Shown here: piece after piece, positions 2,295 through 64,000 of the stretch
How the letters are laid out: each line of letters begins with the position of its first letter
How positions within the stretch are numbered: the stretch's first letter is position 1
NCBI GenBank assembly: GCA_002723155.1
Contig: PBNO01000004.1
Coordinates: 220,943 to 284,942, forward strand
DNA length: 64,000 nt
Source: Ponticaulis sp.
GTDB taxonomy: Bacteria; Pseudomonadota; Alphaproteobacteria; Caulobacterales; Hyphomonadaceae
Reading direction: 5' to 3'
Notes under the pieces: model-generated
Database searches by the model: none
What the model was told of the DNA's origin: nothing
What the model saw: the letters and a program-made list of their open reading frames with translations, nothing else
Position numbers and translations under genes: made by a program

Positions 2295-2354
2295 GCCTGC
2301 TAAACGACCATTAACCCAATTTCCGGGATTTTTGTGTTCGATAGGGCAAGTCAT

Positions 2355-3866
2355 ATGAGTTTAGATTTACAGCCTCGGATCGTAGTATTTGGCGTCGGCG
2401 GTGCTGGCGGAAATGCGGTCGATAATATGATTAAAGCGCAGCTTCAGGGCGTTGAGTTCGTTGTTGCGAACACGGACGCACAGGCGCTGGCGCGTTCATC
2501 CTGCGAACACAAAATCCAGCTGGGGCTCGAAACGACCTCCGGTCTCGGTGCTGGCGCTCGTCCGGAAGTCGGCACAGCTGCAGCCGAAGAATCCATCGAA
2601 GAAATTAACCTTCACCTCGACGGCGCACACATGGTGTTCATCGCTGCCGGTATGGGTGGCGGTACAGGTACTGGCTCTGCGCCGGTCATCGCACGCATGG
2701 CTCGCGAGCGCGGTATCCTTACAGTTGGTGTTGTGACCAAGCCGTTCGGTTTTGAAGGCAAACGCCGCATGAACCTTGCCGAGCAAGGTCTGGAAGACAT
2801 CAAGCAACACGTCGACACTCTGATCATTATTCCGAACCAGAACCTGTTCCGCGTTGCGAACGAGCAGACAACATTTGCTGACGCCTTCCAGATGGCAGAC
2901 CGCGTTCTGTATTCTGGTGTTCGTGGCATCACAGACCTCATGGTTATGCCAGGCCTCATCAATCTCGACTTTGCTGACGTTCGTACCGTTATGGCGGAAA
3001 TGGGCGCAGCTATGATGGGTACAGGCGAAAGCGCTGGCGAAAGCCGTGCGCTGGAAGCAGCTCAGGCTGCTGTCGCGAACCCGCTTCTCGACGACATCTC
3101 GCTGAAAGGCGCGAAAGGCGTTCTGATCAACATCACCGGCGGCTACGACATGACGCTGTATGAAGTTGACGAAGCGGCTAACGAGATCCGTAACCTGGTT
3201 GATCCTGAAGCGAACATCATTCTCGGCTCTACATTCGACGAGAATATCGAAGGCAAAATGCGCGTATCTGTTGTTGCAACCGGTATCGACGATGAAGCAC
3301 CTGCCGCGAAGCCTGCGGAAAGCATTTCCGGCTTTGCATCTTCTCTCAACCAGCGCCCGGCACCGGCTGAGAAGCCAGCTCCGGCGCCTGAAGTTGTTGC
3401 TGAAGCGGCAGAAGTTGAAGCGCCGAAGCCATCTATCGTCGTGTCTGAGCCAGCTAAAGCTGTTGAAGCACCTGTCGAAGAAGAAGTTGTTGCTGAAGCT
3501 GCGCCTGAGCCAGTTGAAGAGAAGCCGGTTCGTCGTGGTAAAGTCGTCGGACGTATCGATGACACTGCGCCATACGATTATGAAGTGGGCGCTTCCTCTT
3601 ATGGTCAGGACCGTGTCCGCGCTGAAGACATTTTCGGCAAAAGCCACAAGAATGACGGCCGTCGCTCTTCAGAGACAGACCGGTCTATCGAGCAACGCAC
3701 AAGCGGCCTTCACAACCTCTTCGGTTGGCGCCGTCCTTCAGGCGAAACAGATGCGCCATTCGAAGATGTGAATGACACATCAAATGACTCTATGGGTCGC
3801 GGTATGCCAGCAGATGATTCCGATCTGGAAATTCCGGCATTCCTGCGACGCTCGGCGAACAATTAA
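2355..3866 (+). CDS. ftsZ: Cell division protein FtsZ
   Basis: FtsZ is the tubulin-like GTPase that forms the cytokinetic ring. The product carries [12 protein letters not shown] near the N-terminus, the tubulin signature GGGTGTGS (about residues 101-108) and the T7 catalytic loop [11 protein letters not shown]. These are followed by a long Pro/Ala/Glu/Val-rich disordered linker and the C-terminal peptide [13 protein letters not shown] that binds FtsA and other tethers. I chose the ATG at 2355 because AGGG at 2343-2346 sits 8 bases before it. A GTG at 2334 would add seven residues and has no ribosome binding site. With this start the protein is 503 residues, the usual alphaproteobacterial length. 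A strong terminator follows. Confidence 0.97.
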
Positions 3867-6152: not shown

Positions 6153-7859
6153 ATGTTAATTGCATTCTCAGTCCGTGATTTCGTTTTAATTGATGCCCTG
6201 GACCTTGATGTGTGCCGGGGCTTTACGTCTGTCACCGGTGAAACCGGTGCCGGTAAATCTATCATGCTTGATGCGCTCCGCTTCGTGCTGGGCGGGAAGG
6301 CTGACAAGCGCTTCATCCGGCATGGCGCAGAACGCACCAGCGTGTCGGCAAGCTTCGAACTTGAGGCGGACCATCCTGCACGGCTGGAACTTCTCGAACG
6401 CGGTCTTCTCTCCGATGATGAGACGCTGGTCACGTTCCGACGCCTGCTATCTCAGAGCGGTCCATCGCGGATTTATGCAAACGACCAGATTGTAAGTGCG
6501 GATCTTGCGACGCAGCTCGGCAAGGACCTCGTTGAAATCCATGGTCAGCATGATGGCTCTGCGCTTCTGAATCCGAAACTCCATGGTGATGTGCTCGACG
6601 AGTTTGCTCAGGCATGCCCTCTGTTGAAGAGCGTCGCGGAAAGCTATCGCCTCTGGGCCGAAGCGCGTGACCGCGTCGAAGAGGTCGAAGCCCGTCAGAA
6701 CTCTCAGGATGCAGAGATTGCCCAGCTTGAACATATGCTGGAAGAACTTGATCGTCTGAGCCCGGGCGAGGAGGAAGCCTCCCGCCTCGCGCTGGAACGG
6801 GCCATGCTGCTCAACAGCCAGAAGCTGATCGAGTGTATGACAGATGCAGACGAAGCGCTTCGCAAGTCTGATGGCGCGTCCGCATTCGGTTTGGCGGCCC
6901 GTCATCTCGACCGCGCTATGCGCTTGCCTGAACTTGCCGAAGCGCCAGAAGATAATCCGCAGCTCGTGGCTCTCAAATCCGCGCAGGATGCAGTTGAACG
7001 CGCGCTGATCGAAATCAACGAGGCGAGCATTGCGGTCGAAAGCTCTATGACGGCCTTTGATCATGATCCCGATACGCTTGAACAGGTCGAGCAGCGCCTT
7101 TTCAGCCTTCGGGCCGCTGCACGTAAGTTTGACGTCGATCCGGATGGCCTTGCGGCCCTGCATCTCGAAGCGCGTTCTAAGCTCTCCGAACTGGAAGCCT
7201 TTGACGACGTCATTGCTTCAGCGCGTAAAGCCATGGCTGAGGTTGAAAAGGTTTACTGCGAACGGGCTGACAAACTGTCAGCGCTCCGGAAATCCAGCGG
7301 TGAACAGCTCAGCTCGCTTGTCCTCAAAGAGCTTGCGCCACTGAAGCTTGAACATGCGAAATTCCGTGTCCGTATCGACCATCTGGAAATCGAGAAAGCA
7401 GGACCGAACGGTCAGGATCGCGTTCTATTCGAGGTTCAGACGAACCCTGGTGCGCCATTCGGGCCACTGAACCAGATTGCTTCCGGCGGCGAGCTTGCGC
7501 GCTTCACGCTCGCACTTCGTGTGTGTCTGGCTCATGTCCACTCTGCGACTCTGCTTGTGTTCGACGAAGTCGATCAGGGCGTGGGCGGCGCGGTTGCGGC
7601 AGCGGTTGGTGAACGCCTCGGACGCCTCGCCGATATGCGGCAGGTTATGGCCATCACGCACAGCCCGCAGGTAGCCGCATCCGGACACCAGCACTGGCAC
7701 GTCACCAAACGGGTTGATGATGGCGAACGCACGGTTTCCCAGCTCAATGAACTCAAAGGCGAGGCGCGTCTGGAAGAGGTTGCGCGTATGCTCTCTGGCA
7801 GCGAGATAACAAATGAGGCGCGTGCAGCTGCAGATCGCTTGATGGCAGAGACAGTTTAA
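6153..7859 (+). CDS. recN: DNA repair protein RecN
   Basis: RecN is an SMC-like ATPase that acts in recombinational repair of double-strand breaks. The 568-residue protein has Walker A GETGAGKS (29-36) near the N-terminus, two long coiled-coil arms rich in Glu/Arg/Leu flanking a short hinge, the ABC signature ASGGELARFTLALRV and Walker B LLVFDEVDQGVGG near the C-terminus, then the H-loop THSPQVAA. Length and domain order are standard. The 44-base gap to bamD and 15-base gap to ligA suggest one transcript. I saw no LexA-type box in the upstream gap. Confidence 0.95.
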   Translation: MLIAFSVRDFVLIDALDLDVCRGFTSVTGETGAGKSIMLDALRFVLGGKADKRFIRHGAERTSVSASFELEADHPARLELLERGLLSDDETLVTFRRLLSQSGPSRIYANDQIVSADLATQLGKDLVEIHGQHDGSALLNPKLHGDVLDEFAQACPLLKSVAESYRLWAEARDRVEEVEARQNSQDAEIAQLEHMLEELDRLSPGEEEASRLALERAMLLNSQKLIECMTDADEALRKSDGASAFGLAARHLDRAMRLPELAEAPEDNPQLVALKSAQDAVERALIEINEASIAVESSMTAFDHDPDTLEQVEQRLFSLRAAARKFDVDPDGLAALHLEARSKLSELEAFDDVIASARKAMAEVEKVYCERADKLSALRKSSGEQLSSLVLKELAPLKLEHAKFRVRIDHLEIEKAGPNGQDRVLFEVQTNPGAPFGPLNQIASGGELARFTLALRVCLAHVHSATLLVFDEVDQGVGGAVAAAVGERLGRLADMRQVMAITHSPQVAASGHQHWHVTKRVDDGERTVSQLNELKGEARLEEVARMLSGSEITNEARAAADRLMAETV

Positions 7860-10313
<2,454 letters not shown>

Positions 10314-58878: not shown

Positions 58879-60837
58879 TTAGCTATTCTTGCTGTGAAAC
58901 GCTGCATCAAGCAGCAGGAAGGCTGTCAGGCGTTTGGCTGCGGCGGTGCGGCTGCGATCCGCCTCATTCAGAGACCGCATGGCATCCGTCGTTTCCTCTG
59001 AGAGGAAGCGCTCGACAGCTGCGTGGAAATGCTCCTGATCTTCGATACGGTATTGGAGTTCCTGAACTTTTGATCCGGCATACTCACGAACAGCGCGGCG
59101 GCGATTACGTTCATTGCGACGTGACGCACCCGCAATTTTTCGCGTTTCCTTCATCGTGAACGCATCCGTCAGGGCGATGCCCATATCCTCGACTTCGCTC
59201 AGAATAATGCGGGCTGCATCGTCACGTTCTTCAGGATCGGATGACAGGCCGGCCAGAAGATCTTTCCAGGACAGGCCCATTTCCTTCTGTGATGCATTGT
59301 CGAATGCCAGATCAAACAGAGAGCTTTCTTCGCTGGTCGTCTCACTGCTTTCGGGTGCCGATGTACGTTCCTGAACGCTTGTTTCGCCATCGTTTTGCGG
59401 TGCAGCCTTTTGCCTTGGCTGCGAGAAGAGCATGGAAGAGGTGCTCTTGTCCGTTTCCGCCAGCGTTTCAAAAGATGGCTTTGGTTCATCCGTATCAGGC
59501 TGGCGACGGCGCAGATTTTCTGGCGGTGCCGGTACTGGCGTTGGTGCTGGCGGTTGAGGCTGCGGCGCTGCGGGCTGGGCCGGTGGCTCCGGCATAGCAG
59601 GCGCTGCGGATAGAATGTCTCCGTCGCTCAGGCCGTTTAGCAGCGCAGAGGCGCGCTCAATACGCTGGCGCGCGCGTTCCAGACCGGCTTCAGCGGTCGA
59701 TGTCGCACGCGTTGCCGCGTCATACAGCATCTGGGAAAGCGCCATGATGCGGTGTTCTGTTTCATCGGCCTGAGAGCGCGCGGCATCGCCTGCGGCGCGC
59801 GTAGCCGCTTCGGCCTGCTGACCAGCCGTCTTGAGCTCTGCAAGACCTTTGAGGGCTTCCTGAACGGCTTCGCGTGACTGGGCTCGGATGAACTCAGAAG
59901 CCTCTCGTGTACCATCAAGCGCGTTTGCGACAGCCGAATTGAGGGCGTCGCCGGTCTCGGTCGCAGCGGTTGCTGCAAGCTCGCTCGCACGGATGGCGGT
60001 CTCAACAGTTTTGGAGGACTCCGTGAGGCGTTGCTCGATCTCTTCTACGGACGCGTTAATGCGGGCAGAGCGCGCTTCAGCATCTGCCGACATCGCGTCG
60101 AGCGCAGCCAGCTTGTCGGTGAGCGTCATGGTTGAATCGTTGAGAGACGTCAGACGGTCATCCAGCGCTTTGTCGGCTTGCGCGACCTCGTGTTGGGCAA
60201 GGCGTGCTGCCTCAGCCATGGCGCGGGCCTGACGTGGAATAGCTTCGGAAATAGCCGCAGTTTGTGTCTCGACAGCGCTGGAAAGCTCGCCGAGGGCCTG
60301 ACGTTCCTCTGCGAGCTTGTTCATCATGCTCGCAATGGTTTTCGTATTCTTGGTGACCAGTTCTGAGAACTCTTCACGCTCAGTGCCCAGCGTGGCGCGC
60401 AGCTCAACCAATGAGGCGTGAGCAGTTTCAACCAGCTCGTCGACCTTCTGTGTTTCTTCGCGCACTTTATCAGTCAGCGTCTCGATACGTGAGCTCGCCG
60501 CGTCAGCTGGCATGAGCAGCATTTGTGAAGCGCGCAGAACCAGCGTGTTAGCACGTGCGTGGCGCATGGACTGGCGGCCCATAAAGCCTGCAAGAATGAT
60601 TGCGATCGCAGGACCGGCCAGAATAGTGGCGCCAGCTGCGAACCAGAGCGGGTTCATGAGAAGGAAAGCTTGCGTGCCCATTGCGGCCCATGCCGTCAGA
60701 ACAGCACCCACGTACAGAAATGCGGCTGCAGCAAAGCCTGCGGTAACCATCCAGGTACCGGCTGTTCGGATCTGTTGGAGCTCTTCCTGAGTTTCCTGAA
60801 GGGCTTTCAGATAGTTTTCATCACGCGACTGGGACAT
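58879..60837 (-). CDS. CtrA-box-driven coiled-coil membrane protein (TipN-like candidate)
   Basis: The product (about 650 residues from MSQSRDENYLKAL; longer starts at 60870 and 60885 cannot be excluded) has two membrane helices near residues 28-90, then about 330 residues of almost continuous coiled coil rich in Ala/Glu/Arg. A Pro-rich linker (PEPPAQPAAPQPQPPAPTP) and an acidic Ser-rich stretch follow, and a helical C-terminal domain with LSWKDLLAGLSS and MKETRKIAGASRRNERNRRRA ends the protein. Caulobacter TipN, a new-pole marker, has the same architecture, but no motif proves homology. A perfect CtrA box lies upstream (60895-60909), which favours the start near 60837 because an activator box usually overlaps the -35 region. 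Confidence 0.65.
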   Translation of the reverse strand: MSQSRDENYLKALQETQEELQQIRTAGTWMVTAGFAAAAFLYVGAVLTAWAAMGTQAFLLMNPLWFAAGATILAGPAIAIILAGFMGRQSMRHARANTLVLRASQMLLMPADAASSRIETLTDKVREETQKVDELVETAHASLVELRATLGTEREEFSELVTKNTKTIASMMNKLAEERQALGELSSAVETQTAAISEAIPRQARAMAEAARLAQHEVAQADKALDDRLTSLNDSTMTLTDKLAALDAMSADAEARSARINASVEEIEQRLTESSKTVETAIRASELAATAATETGDALNSAVANALDGTREASEFIRAQSREAVQEALKGLAELKTAGQQAEAATRAAGDAARSQADETEHRIMALSQMLYDAATRATSTAEAGLERARQRIERASALLNGLSDGDILSAAPAMPEPPAQPAAPQPQPPAPTPVPAPPENLRRRQPDTDEPKPSFETLAETDKSTSSMLFSQPRQKAAPQNDGETSVQERTSAPESSETTSEESSLFDLAFDNASQKEMGLSWKDLLAGLSSDPEERDDAARIILSEVEDMGIALTDAFTMKETRKIAGASRRNERNRRRAVREYAGSKVQELQYRIEDQEHFHAAVERFLSEETTDAMRSLNEADRSRTAAAKRLTAFLLLDAAFHSKNS

Positions 60838-60894
60838 GGGGACAGATACTGCAATATTTTGCGGGATCATGCGACCGGCAAACACAGTATTTTT

Positions 60895-60909
60895 TTAATT
60901 TTGTGTTAA
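60895..60909. promoter_or_regulatory. CtrA box upstream of the coiled-coil gene
   Basis: A perfect TTAA-N7-TTAA (read on the minus strand as TTAACACAAAATTAA), 58 bases before the chosen start. Only one other perfect copy is seen in an intergenic region of this window, at ftsZ. Confidence 0.7.
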
Positions 60910-60950
60910 CAAAACTGTCCGGATTCTGCGGCTTGCGGACCGGAGATCAA

Positions 60951-61163
60951 TTAAGACCGGAAAAGCTCGTGCTGTGTCAGCGGTGTATCTTTGCGATAAA
61001 CCGGCGCAGAGATCAGCTGAACAGGGGCTTCCGTTTGCATGTAGATTTTTGCGGCCTGACGCTGCTCTGAAGAGCGGTCTGGCTGCGATGTGTAATCAAC
61101 ACCGATCCAGCTTAGAACGGTGACGAGGATTACGTCTCTCAGTATGACAAGAATTTCTAACAT
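60951..61163 (-). CDS. Small single-pass membrane protein
   Basis: A 70-residue product with an N-terminal membrane helix (LEILVILRDVILVTVLSWIG) and a polar periplasmic or cytoplasmic tail (residues 25-70). ATG at 61163 has GGAG 6 bases upstream. Family not recognised. It lies between the coiled-coil gene and the orphan Hpt gene, upstream of the former. Confidence 0.55.
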   Translation of the reverse strand: MLEILVILRDVILVTVLSWIGVDYTSQPDRSSEQRQAAKIYMQTEAPVQLISAPVYRKDTPLTQHELFRS

Positions 61164-61309
61164 CACTGACTCCAGACCCCTTGAAGCATGCTTAATATCG
61201 CTGAAAATGGCATCTACAACAAGACTGCGGGGCCGATTATTTGATGAAACCCTGTTAATGTATTCCTGCTACTGCGAGTACTTTGTTAGCGTTCGCACAG
61301 GATATCACC

Positions 61310-61681
61310 ATGGACCGCTGGATCGACCGGCAGCAGCTCGCAAATAACACCGCTCTGGATGCGGAGCTCGCCCTTGAAGTTCTTGAGATTTTCAAAGGTC
61401 AGGTTGAAACCTGGGGGCAGATGCTGGACGCAAATGATGAGCCTGAACGCTGGGCTGATGCGGCTCATACCATAAAGGGTGCAGCTCTGGGCATAGGCGC
61501 AGGGCCGCTAGCAGAAGCATGTAAAGCGGCAGAAACGGCGGGTCGCGCAGATCCGCCGCCATCGAAAACGCGCGCGGCTGTACTCATCAACGATATCCGC
61601 GATGCGCTGTACCCAACGCTGGAAAGCGTGGCGCGCGTCGATCACGAATTGCGCGTGTCCGGCTTTTTGAGATTGTCGTAG
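61310..61681 (+). CDS. Orphan Hpt (histidine phosphotransfer) protein
   Basis: The 123-residue four-helix protein has the phosphorylatable His53 in AAHTIKGAALGIGAGPLAE, the standard H-x-x-K-G motif. No kinase or receiver gene is adjacent, so partners are unknown; it could shuttle phosphate in a relay controlling the nearby c-di-GMP protein or the cell cycle. ATG at 61310 has AGGA 7 bases upstream. Its last 40 bases overlap the convergent chorismate mutase gene. Confidence 0.85.
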   Translation: MDRWIDRQQLANNTALDAELALEVLEIFKGQVETWGQMLDANDEPERWADAAHTIKGAALGIGAGPLAEACKAAETAGRADPPPSKTRAAVLINDIRDALYPTLESVARVDHELRVSGFLRLS

Positions 61682-62082: not shown

Positions 62083-64000
62083 TTAACCACCAGAGACGAT
62101 ACGAACCGTGCCGAGATTTCGCTGTTCTGCATCAGAAGTGAACAGGGTCTCTATGCCGTGCTGCATGCTTCGGATTTCGATCAGGTCGGAAAGCTTTTCC
62201 GGACGCCCGAGCAGGAAGCCCTGAATTTCGTCACAGCCTTCCTCTTTCAGAATGCTGAGCTGAGCTGCGCTCTCAACACCCTCGGCCAGAACCGGAATGG
62301 AGAGGCTCTTGCCTAGTGAGAGTACTGACCGCACGAGTGCACGGGATTCACGGCTGACTTCGATTTCCGACATGAAGAAGCGGTCCAGCTTGATCTTGTC
62401 GAACGGGAAGGAGCGGAGAATTTCCAGCGACGAATAGCCGGTGCCGAAATCATCCAGCGCGACCTTAACGCCAAGCGCTTTAATCTGGCGCAACACATGG
62501 AGAGACCGGTCGCGGTCTTCCAGAATAGCCGTTTCCGTCAGCTCGATTTCGAGACGGTGCGGCGGCAGGCCAGTCTCCAGAAGTGTCTGGTGTACAATGC
62601 GTGGCAGCTCTACCTGTGTCAGCTGCAGCGCCGACATGTTTACAGCGACTTTGTCTTCTGACTCCCAGCCGGCAGCGTCCTCACATGCACGGCGCAAAAC
62701 CCATTCGCCGAGGCGAATGATAAGGCCGCTTTCTTCTGCAATAGGGATGAAGACGCTTGGTGAGATGGGACCAAGCTTTGGATGCGTCCAGCGCAGAAGC
62801 GCTTCCAGGCCACTGATTTTGCTTGATTTAACGGACGCCTGAAGCTGGTAGTAAAGCTCCAACTCATTATTTTCTAGCGCCTGAGCCAAAGACGCAGCAA
62901 GCTCGCGCTTCTGTCGGGCTTCTTCGTCCATGGAGGCTGTGTAGAAGCAGATCGTATTGGAGGCGTGAATCTTCGCGCGATACATTGCGAGGTCTGCGTT
63001 ATTGCGCAGTGTGTCGCTGTCTTTGCCGTCTTCCGGATAGCGGGCAACGCCAATGCTTCCGCTCAGATGGAGCGTGGTTTCATTCACCTGAAGGCGCGTA
63101 TTCAGCGCCGATTGGAGGCGTGAAAGGAAGTCTTCCAGCTCTTCCTCGGTTGAATACTCCTTCGTCGCGGCGAATTCATCGCCGCCGAGCCGGGCGACAA
63201 TCTCGCCGCTATGACACTGTGCCTGAAAGGCATTCGCCAAAGCGATCAGAGCTGCGTCACCAGCTTTGTGGCCATGGGAATCGTTGATGTCCTTGAAGCG
63301 ATCCATATCGATGCCGATGACGGCGAGGGTGGCGCTATTACGCTCTGCCTTTTGGATACGCGTGTTCAGATCATCCATATAGGCATTACGATTGGCCAGA
63401 CCGGTCAGCGTATCCGTCATGGCCATTTGCAGAAGCTTCTCATAACCGGTTTTGCGCTGGTCGGCATCAAGGAAGAATGTGATGCCGCCGATTGCGATGA
63501 CCAGAAGTCCGGCAAGTGCGGTCGCCATGGAGAGTGCTACGAATGTCGCTTCGTCCATTGGGGTATCAGAGATGGCGAACGACGTGATTTCCATGCCGGT
63601 CATGCCGGTGAAATGGAGGCTGATCACGCCCAGTGCATAGAGGCCGATAGCTGGAAGATTAAGTTTCTCGAAGCTACTGCGGCGCAGCACCAGGCCCGAC
63701 GCAATCGTGAATGCACAGGCACAAGCTATCGACGCCGCGACATAGCCAAGGTCCCAACTTACAATGCCGTCTACGCGATAAGCCATCATGCCAAGGTAGT
63801 GCAGACCTGACATGCAAAGACCGAGTAGGGTGTTGCCGATAATGCTCGCCAGAAGTGTACGGCCATAGATCACCAGAGAAATCGCAGCGAAAAAGCCGAA
63901 GACCGGCGCAATAAGCGACGCCATAGTCAGTACCGGATCGATCACAACAGGTACATGTGCCTGGAAGGACAGCATTGCGATGAAGTGGGTACACCAGACC
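62083..64000 (-). CDS. MHYT-GGDEF-EAL c-di-GMP protein (5' end missing)
   Basis: The visible part runs from the window edge to a stop at 62083, over 630 residues. MHYT sensor motifs appear as THFIAM (at the edge), LHYLGM and LHFTGM within membrane helices, so this is the copper/O2-sensing type membrane module. A GGDEF domain follows with an intact RLGGDEF, but the four residues where the inhibitory I-site RxxD would sit are HSGE. The EAL domain has SGLEALLRW and the later DDFGTGYSSLEILRSF. Both catalytic sets look intact, so it may make or degrade c-di-GMP. The gene starts outside the window. Confidence 0.92.
   Translation of the reverse strand, partial: VWCTHFIAMLSFQAHVPVVIDPVLTMASLIAPVFGFFAAISLVIYGRTLLASIIGNTLLGLCMSGLHYLGMMAYRVDGIVSWDLGYVAASIACACAFTIASGLVLRRSSFEKLNLPAIGLYALGVISLHFTGMTGMEITSFAISDTPMDEATFVALSMATALAGLLVIAIGGITFFLDADQRKTGYEKLLQMAMTDTLTGLANRNAYMDDLNTRIQKAERNSATLAVIGIDMDRFKDINDSHGHKAGDAALIALANAFQAQCHSGEIVARLGGDEFAATKEYSTEEELEDFLSRLQSALNTRLQVNETTLHLSGSIGVARYPEDGKDSDTLRNNADLAMYRAKIHASNTICFYTASMDEEARQKRELAASLAQALENNELELYYQLQASVKSSKISGLEALLRWTHPKLGPISPSVFIPIAEESGLIIRLGEWVLRRACEDAAGWESEDKVAVNMSALQLTQVELPRIVHQTLLETGLPPHRLEIELTETAILEDRDRSLHVLRQIKALGVKVALDDFGTGYSSLEILRSFPFDKIKLDRFFMSEIEVSRESRALVRSVLSLGKSLSIPVLAEGVESAAQLSILKEEGCDEIQGFLLGRPEKLSDLIEIRSMQHGIETLFTSDAEQRNLGTVRIVSGG

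Follow-up and report, generated by a model that had tools for sequence, protein, structure and literature searches.

Is the long membrane protein encoded near one end of the window analysed here (the whole stretch of 64,000 nucleotides from a Ponticaulis contig) a relative of TipN, the new-pole marker of Caulobacter, or a scaffold of a new kind? The original prediction noted a TipN-like layout and a CtrA box at the promoter, saw no sequence homology to TipN and proposed a new cell-cycle-controlled membrane scaffold should the protein prove distinct. The open frame (58879-60885, minus strand) comprises 668 codons when read from a GTG at 60885; however, the ATG at 60837 is the likely start of the gene (58879-60837), yielding a protein of about 652 aa, because the relatives from the same genus align from about the MSQSRDE sequence and the upstream frame in L014 contains a stop.

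The predicted architecture, namely two membrane helices, a coiled coil of more than 300 residues, a proline-rich linker and a helical tail, was borne out by hydropathy, a hydrophobic periodicity extending over some 300 residues, and AlphaFold2 modeling. The two predicted membrane helices, residues 30-48 (60694-60750, minus strand; also helical in the AlphaFold2 model) and 64-82 (60592-60648, minus strand), form a hairpin that is followed by a long helical region with coiled coil-like periodicity (about residues 90-396; 59650-60570, minus strand). Within this region, residues 109-400 show a hydrophobic period near 3.54 residues, with a power of 3.98; the highest value among 500 shuffles was 2.14. 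The helices give way to a linker predicted to be disordered (about residues 397-505; 59323-59649, minus strand; pLDDT below 50 over most of its length), the core of which, residues 413-454, contains 17 of the 25 prolines of the protein. The C-terminal helical domain of 133 residues (58882-59280, minus strand) was delineated by alignment, AlphaFold2 modeling and profile comparisons and is common to TipN-type and GPR-type proteins. The full-length model proceeds from long helices through a disordered stretch to a confident helical tail (mean pLDDT 71.7); modeled alone from 37 aligned sequences, the C-terminal domain consists of six helices (pLDDT 92, pTM 0.84). All Pfam and NCBIfam matches of the protein are weak, under the curated cut-offs, and there is no match to the apolipoprotein family PF01442 at an E-value of 1.

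Searches of 61 genomes, from the genus to the order, with the window protein produced matches in 48, including 37 of 37 in its own family (Hyphomonadaceae), 6 of 6 in Caulobacteraceae and 5 of 18 in other families of the order. Each of the six Caulobacteraceae genomes contributed one locus, always the TipN-like gene, with an open frame of 830 to 1,005 aa. A profile of 26 Hyphomonadaceae proteins retrieved from the genome of Caulobacter vibrioides DSM 9893 a sole match, the TipN-type gene (E-value 3.5e-17), and produced an E-value of 2.2e-17 with another genome (G063). The identification of the C. vibrioides gene as TipN rests on its length (882 aa from the MKPKKRQ start, in an 888-aa frame), its layout, and its gene neighbours, which fit those that flank tipN in C. 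crescentus; the protein from G061 is 100% identical to that of L078, the locus named as C. vibrioides DSM 9893. The same length, 882 aa, is printed for TipN in the available part of PMC13170164.

Thus, forward searches with either the window protein or the Hyphomonadaceae profile lead to the TipN locus of Caulobacteraceae. The similarity nevertheless lies close to the detection limit: of 27 genomes sampled from the order, the Hyphomonadaceae profile matched 15 at an E-value of 1, the TipN gene of G049, G037, G041 and G057 going undetected, and a narrow, seven-row Caulobacter-only profile found nothing in the genome from which the window comes even at an E-value of 10.

To escape coiled-coil bias, the ends of the protein were compared separately from the coiled coil. 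The C-terminal domain matched seven Caulobacter rows with a probability of 97.1 and a score of 65.9 (maximum of 18.1 in 60 shuffles; 11.6 for the reversed control), and 25 family sequences compared to eight Caulobacteraceae rows yielded a probability of 98.7 and a score of 95.9 (30 column shuffles reached no more than 24.3). At the other end, the bare hairpin reached only 39%, with a score of 26.9 (compared to at most 14.8 for shuffles and 15.4 for the reversed control), whereas the hairpin together with the following helix, in a nine-row hhalign comparison, gave a probability of 97.8 and a score of 83.1 (compared to at most 22.9 for shuffles and 18.7 for the reversed control). The full-length profiles matched at 99.5% (E-value 1.1e-22). 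The statement that the protein lacks sequence homology to TipN is therefore overturned by the profile match in C. vibrioides and by the separate matches of both ends, well above shuffled controls, and the likeness to TipN extends beyond layout. Because this resemblance reflects homology, the conditional proposal of a new scaffold is not supported; judging from the sequence comparisons, the protein appears to be a divergent member of the TipN family rather than a scaffold of a new kind.

With TipN, as described in the accessible text of PMC4460556, the window protein shares the two N-terminal membrane helices, the long helical coiled coil and the proline-rich linker, in a comparison based on periodicity and predicted helices, with the side of the membrane predicted. 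Both also have the homologous C-terminal domain, with LLLDAA at or near its end, and usually a single locus per genome. In contrast, the window protein is shorter (652 compared to 882 aa), with a shorter helical region, and its identity is 19% over the alignment with one Caulobacteraceae protein (L040) and 25-32% within local matches to Caulobacteraceae. It also lacks the FQ.RVR.NY segment that precedes the linker in TipN. By the strict pattern, this segment is present in 12 of 13 Caulobacteraceae rows (the exception being L041) and in all three rows of family f4, and was detected in none of the 26 Hyphomonadaceae rows and none of 15 more distant relatives. Its absence from these two groups suggests that the segment was gained in some lineages, and it was not treated as defining. 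One f4 relative (L045) has a frame without the C-terminal domain. Among the Hyphomonadaceae, the gene is nearly universal, being present in 102 of 105 sampled genomes, Hirschia baltica (G011) included, and in 88 of the 89 better ones.

The gene order in the window is PBP2-type transpeptidase, RodA, SNF symporter, alpha/beta hydrolase, MlaE, ABC protein, MlaD, lipoprotein and the TipN-family gene. In one Caulobacteraceae genome (L044), the TipN gene is preceded by homologs of three of these genes (transpeptidase, RodA and hydrolase), arranged and oriented as in the window, so that gene order is conserved in part; the hydrolase homolog alone of these neighbours is found in L039, L040, L095 and L114, and the neighbours of tipN in Caulobacter differ from those in the window. 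On the other side, the adjoining gene, divergent from the TipN-family gene, encodes an Hpt-domain protein (61283-61681, plus strand). Of 30 short-flank loci from the family, 22 have an Hpt homolog beside the TipN-family gene, making the phosphotransfer protein and the pole scaffold a conserved pairing. The TipN-family gene is immediately preceded, on its own strand, by an ORF of 71 aa with a hydrophobic start (60951-61166, minus strand), the end of which can be recognised in the two near-identical relatives, though in none of the other members of the genus examined. Also close by is the gene for an MHYT-GGDEF-EAL protein of c-di-GMP turnover (62083-63975, minus strand).

The perfect TTAA-N7-TTAA box, TTAATTTTGTGTTAA, was found as an exact match at 60895-60909, 58-72 bp upstream of the ATG, and is adjoined by a GANTC (CcrM-type) site at 60922-60926. 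The window contains two such perfect boxes compared to 0.18 expected by shuffling. The other box (2280-2294) is located between ftsA (957-2264) and ftsZ (2334-3866), a classical position for a CtrA target. Genome-wide, there is no striking enrichment of TTAA-N7-TTAAC (22 matches compared to 16 for the reversed control). The CtrA box noted in the original prediction is thus real, but it is sparse among relatives: it was detected in 3 of 29 Hyphomonadaceae upstream regions, those of the window species and of two relatives with a 98% identical protein, and in none of 12 Caulobacter-genus tipN loci (L074 and L078, both counted here, represent a single locus); L042 has a CtrA-type site with one mismatch. 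CtrA may possibly control the gene in the species represented by the window, but, because of this sparse occurrence of the box, such control would at best be local and not a trait of the family. GANTC occurs in 19 of 26 family upstream regions compared to 37 of 85 control regions and could be a CcrM/GcrA-type signal that is spread more widely than the CtrA box.

The profile search with the C-terminal region that the original prediction had proposed leads beyond Caulobacter TipN to relatives across the class. A search of 387 alphaproteobacterial genomes with the C-terminal domain alone gave matches in 56, of which 50 lie outside the order. In all 17 of these 50 that were examined, picked for strong matches and length, the domain is followed by just 2-10 residues at the C-terminus of frames of 661 to 2,743 aa (the shortest, L172, is cut by the contig end), and two hydrophobic segments are present near the N-terminus in all 15 class proteins tested (L162 and L172 being left out). 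The Caulobacteraceae domain matches both seven long proteins (probability 97.3; score 68.3, compared to at most 18.2 for shuffles) and ten shorter class proteins (98.5, score 90.6). For the Hyphomonadaceae domain, the probability is 93.3% with the ten shorter proteins and only 48% in the direct comparison with the seven long ones (score 30.5, shuffles up to 15.4). The hairpin region of the 15 class proteins matches those of Hyphomonadaceae and Caulobacteraceae at about 99% each. Among the seven long proteins, PF01442 scores above the Pfam cut-off in three (L165, L166 and L167), is weak in L161 and L163, and has no match in L162 and L164. The C-terminal domain is not covered by a Pfam model, and a limited literature search found no description of it. 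In f23 genomes (e.g. G525 and G939), frames of about 340-366 aa show weak matches to the domain (E-values from 5e-5 to 9e-4), possibly representing a short version of the family in one lineage.

These long proteins are the link to GPR of Agrobacterium and RgsE of Sinorhizobium. According to the available part of PMC8262873, GPR has two N-terminal membrane helices, long helices, a proline-rich region, apolipoprotein repeats and an essential C-terminus, deletions of which abolish function; apart from the repeats, this printed layout resembles that of the window protein, and a similarity of GPR to TipN is mentioned in one clause of the accessible text of PMC8546619. The likeness runs through the 1,842-2,743-aa proteins that carry the shared C-terminal domain, next to which GPR and RgsE are set by description only; with about 2,000 aa and PF01442 repeats, GPR and RgsE are about three times longer than the window protein, in which PF01442 is not detected. 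PodJ and PopZ are, like TipN, pole-organising scaffolds of Caulobacter (PMC10127582, in the part available). PopZ, however, differs: the PopZ-type gene in the genome of the window is a 222-aa frame with a Pfam family of its own, PF10691.

Several other explanations of the locus have to be weighed. That the window protein is an unrelated coiled-coil membrane protein resembling TipN in helical composition only is very improbable: coiled coils do generate spurious matches and the protein family database hits are weak, but the C-terminal domain, which is not a coiled coil, matches by itself far above the shuffled and reversed controls, as does the hairpin with the following helix above its shuffles, and the gene order is shared in part with Caulobacteraceae. 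It also seems improbable, if slightly less so, that the protein is an accessory scaffold in envelope or lipid transport tied to the adjoining Mla-type transporter. The MlaE-ABC-MlaD-lipoprotein genes adjoin the gene in the window, and homologs of the first three adjoin relatives both in the same family (L131 and L132) and in other families (L045, L047 and L049); the TipN-family gene, however, lies on the opposite strand, and Mla-type neighbours were not found in the 18-kb loci L134-L136 and L139-L142 or in the Caulobacteraceae loci.

An unlikely alternative, although the least unlikely of the three, is that the protein belongs to a TipN/GPR superfamily but performs a job nearer to that of GPR, organising a zone of new wall and membrane synthesis in bud or pole growth instead of marking the new pole for the flagellum and ParA. 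The C-terminal domain and the hairpin are common to the long GPR-type proteins, some Hyphomonadaceae grow by budding (PMC3368421 and PMC6650430, in the parts available), and GPR loses its function upon C-terminal deletion. Nevertheless, the size of the protein and the partly conserved gene order are nearer to TipN, the family domain matches the long proteins poorly in the direct comparison, and the apolipoprotein repeats are not detected.

The window protein is thus probably the Hyphomonadaceae member of the TipN family, most likely an ortholog, functioning as a membrane-tethered scaffold of the septum and new pole that docks partners. By analogy with TipN and GPR, the N-terminal hairpin would anchor the protein in the inner membrane, leaving both termini cytoplasmic, and the long helical region would oligomerise, forming a scaffold at the division site and the new pole that could be subject to cell cycle control. 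The proline-rich linker is likely to serve as a flexible tether for the conserved C-terminal domain, which may dock partners, for instance ParA and factors of the pole or growth zone.

In the available text of PMC6650430, the existence of an unknown polar factor that sequesters ParA is inferred for Hyphomonas neptunium; the factor is described as 'analogous to TipN and PopZ', and bactofilin and PopZ are given as the two known landmarks conserved in this bacterium. In the accessible part of PMC4460556, TipN is called a Caulobacter crescentus-specific gene. The TipN-family gene, with its presence in 102 of 105 Hyphomonadaceae genomes, provides a deletable candidate for the missing ParA-sequestering factor and, in this family with its stalked and budding bacteria, a candidate organiser of the cell pole. 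The shared C-terminal domain offers a sequence handle on the GPR-TipN similarity noted in PMC8546619 (in the part available) and indicates a possible site of the essential C-terminal function of GPR. More tentatively, TipN and the rhizobial growth-pole-ring proteins could mark the two extremes of a single alphaproteobacterial family of pole organisers, whose hallmarks would be the membrane hairpin and the undescribed C-terminal docking domain and which would vary most in the length of the coiled coil; the Hyphomonadaceae member would then be the missing polar factor by which ParA is positioned and the bud pole marked in budding bacteria with stalks, H. neptunium among them. We consider this combined scenario possible but somewhat doubtful. 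In the genome that we take to be that of H. neptunium (G208), the TipN-family gene is located at positions 7814-9808 of locus L139 and encodes a protein of 664 aa.
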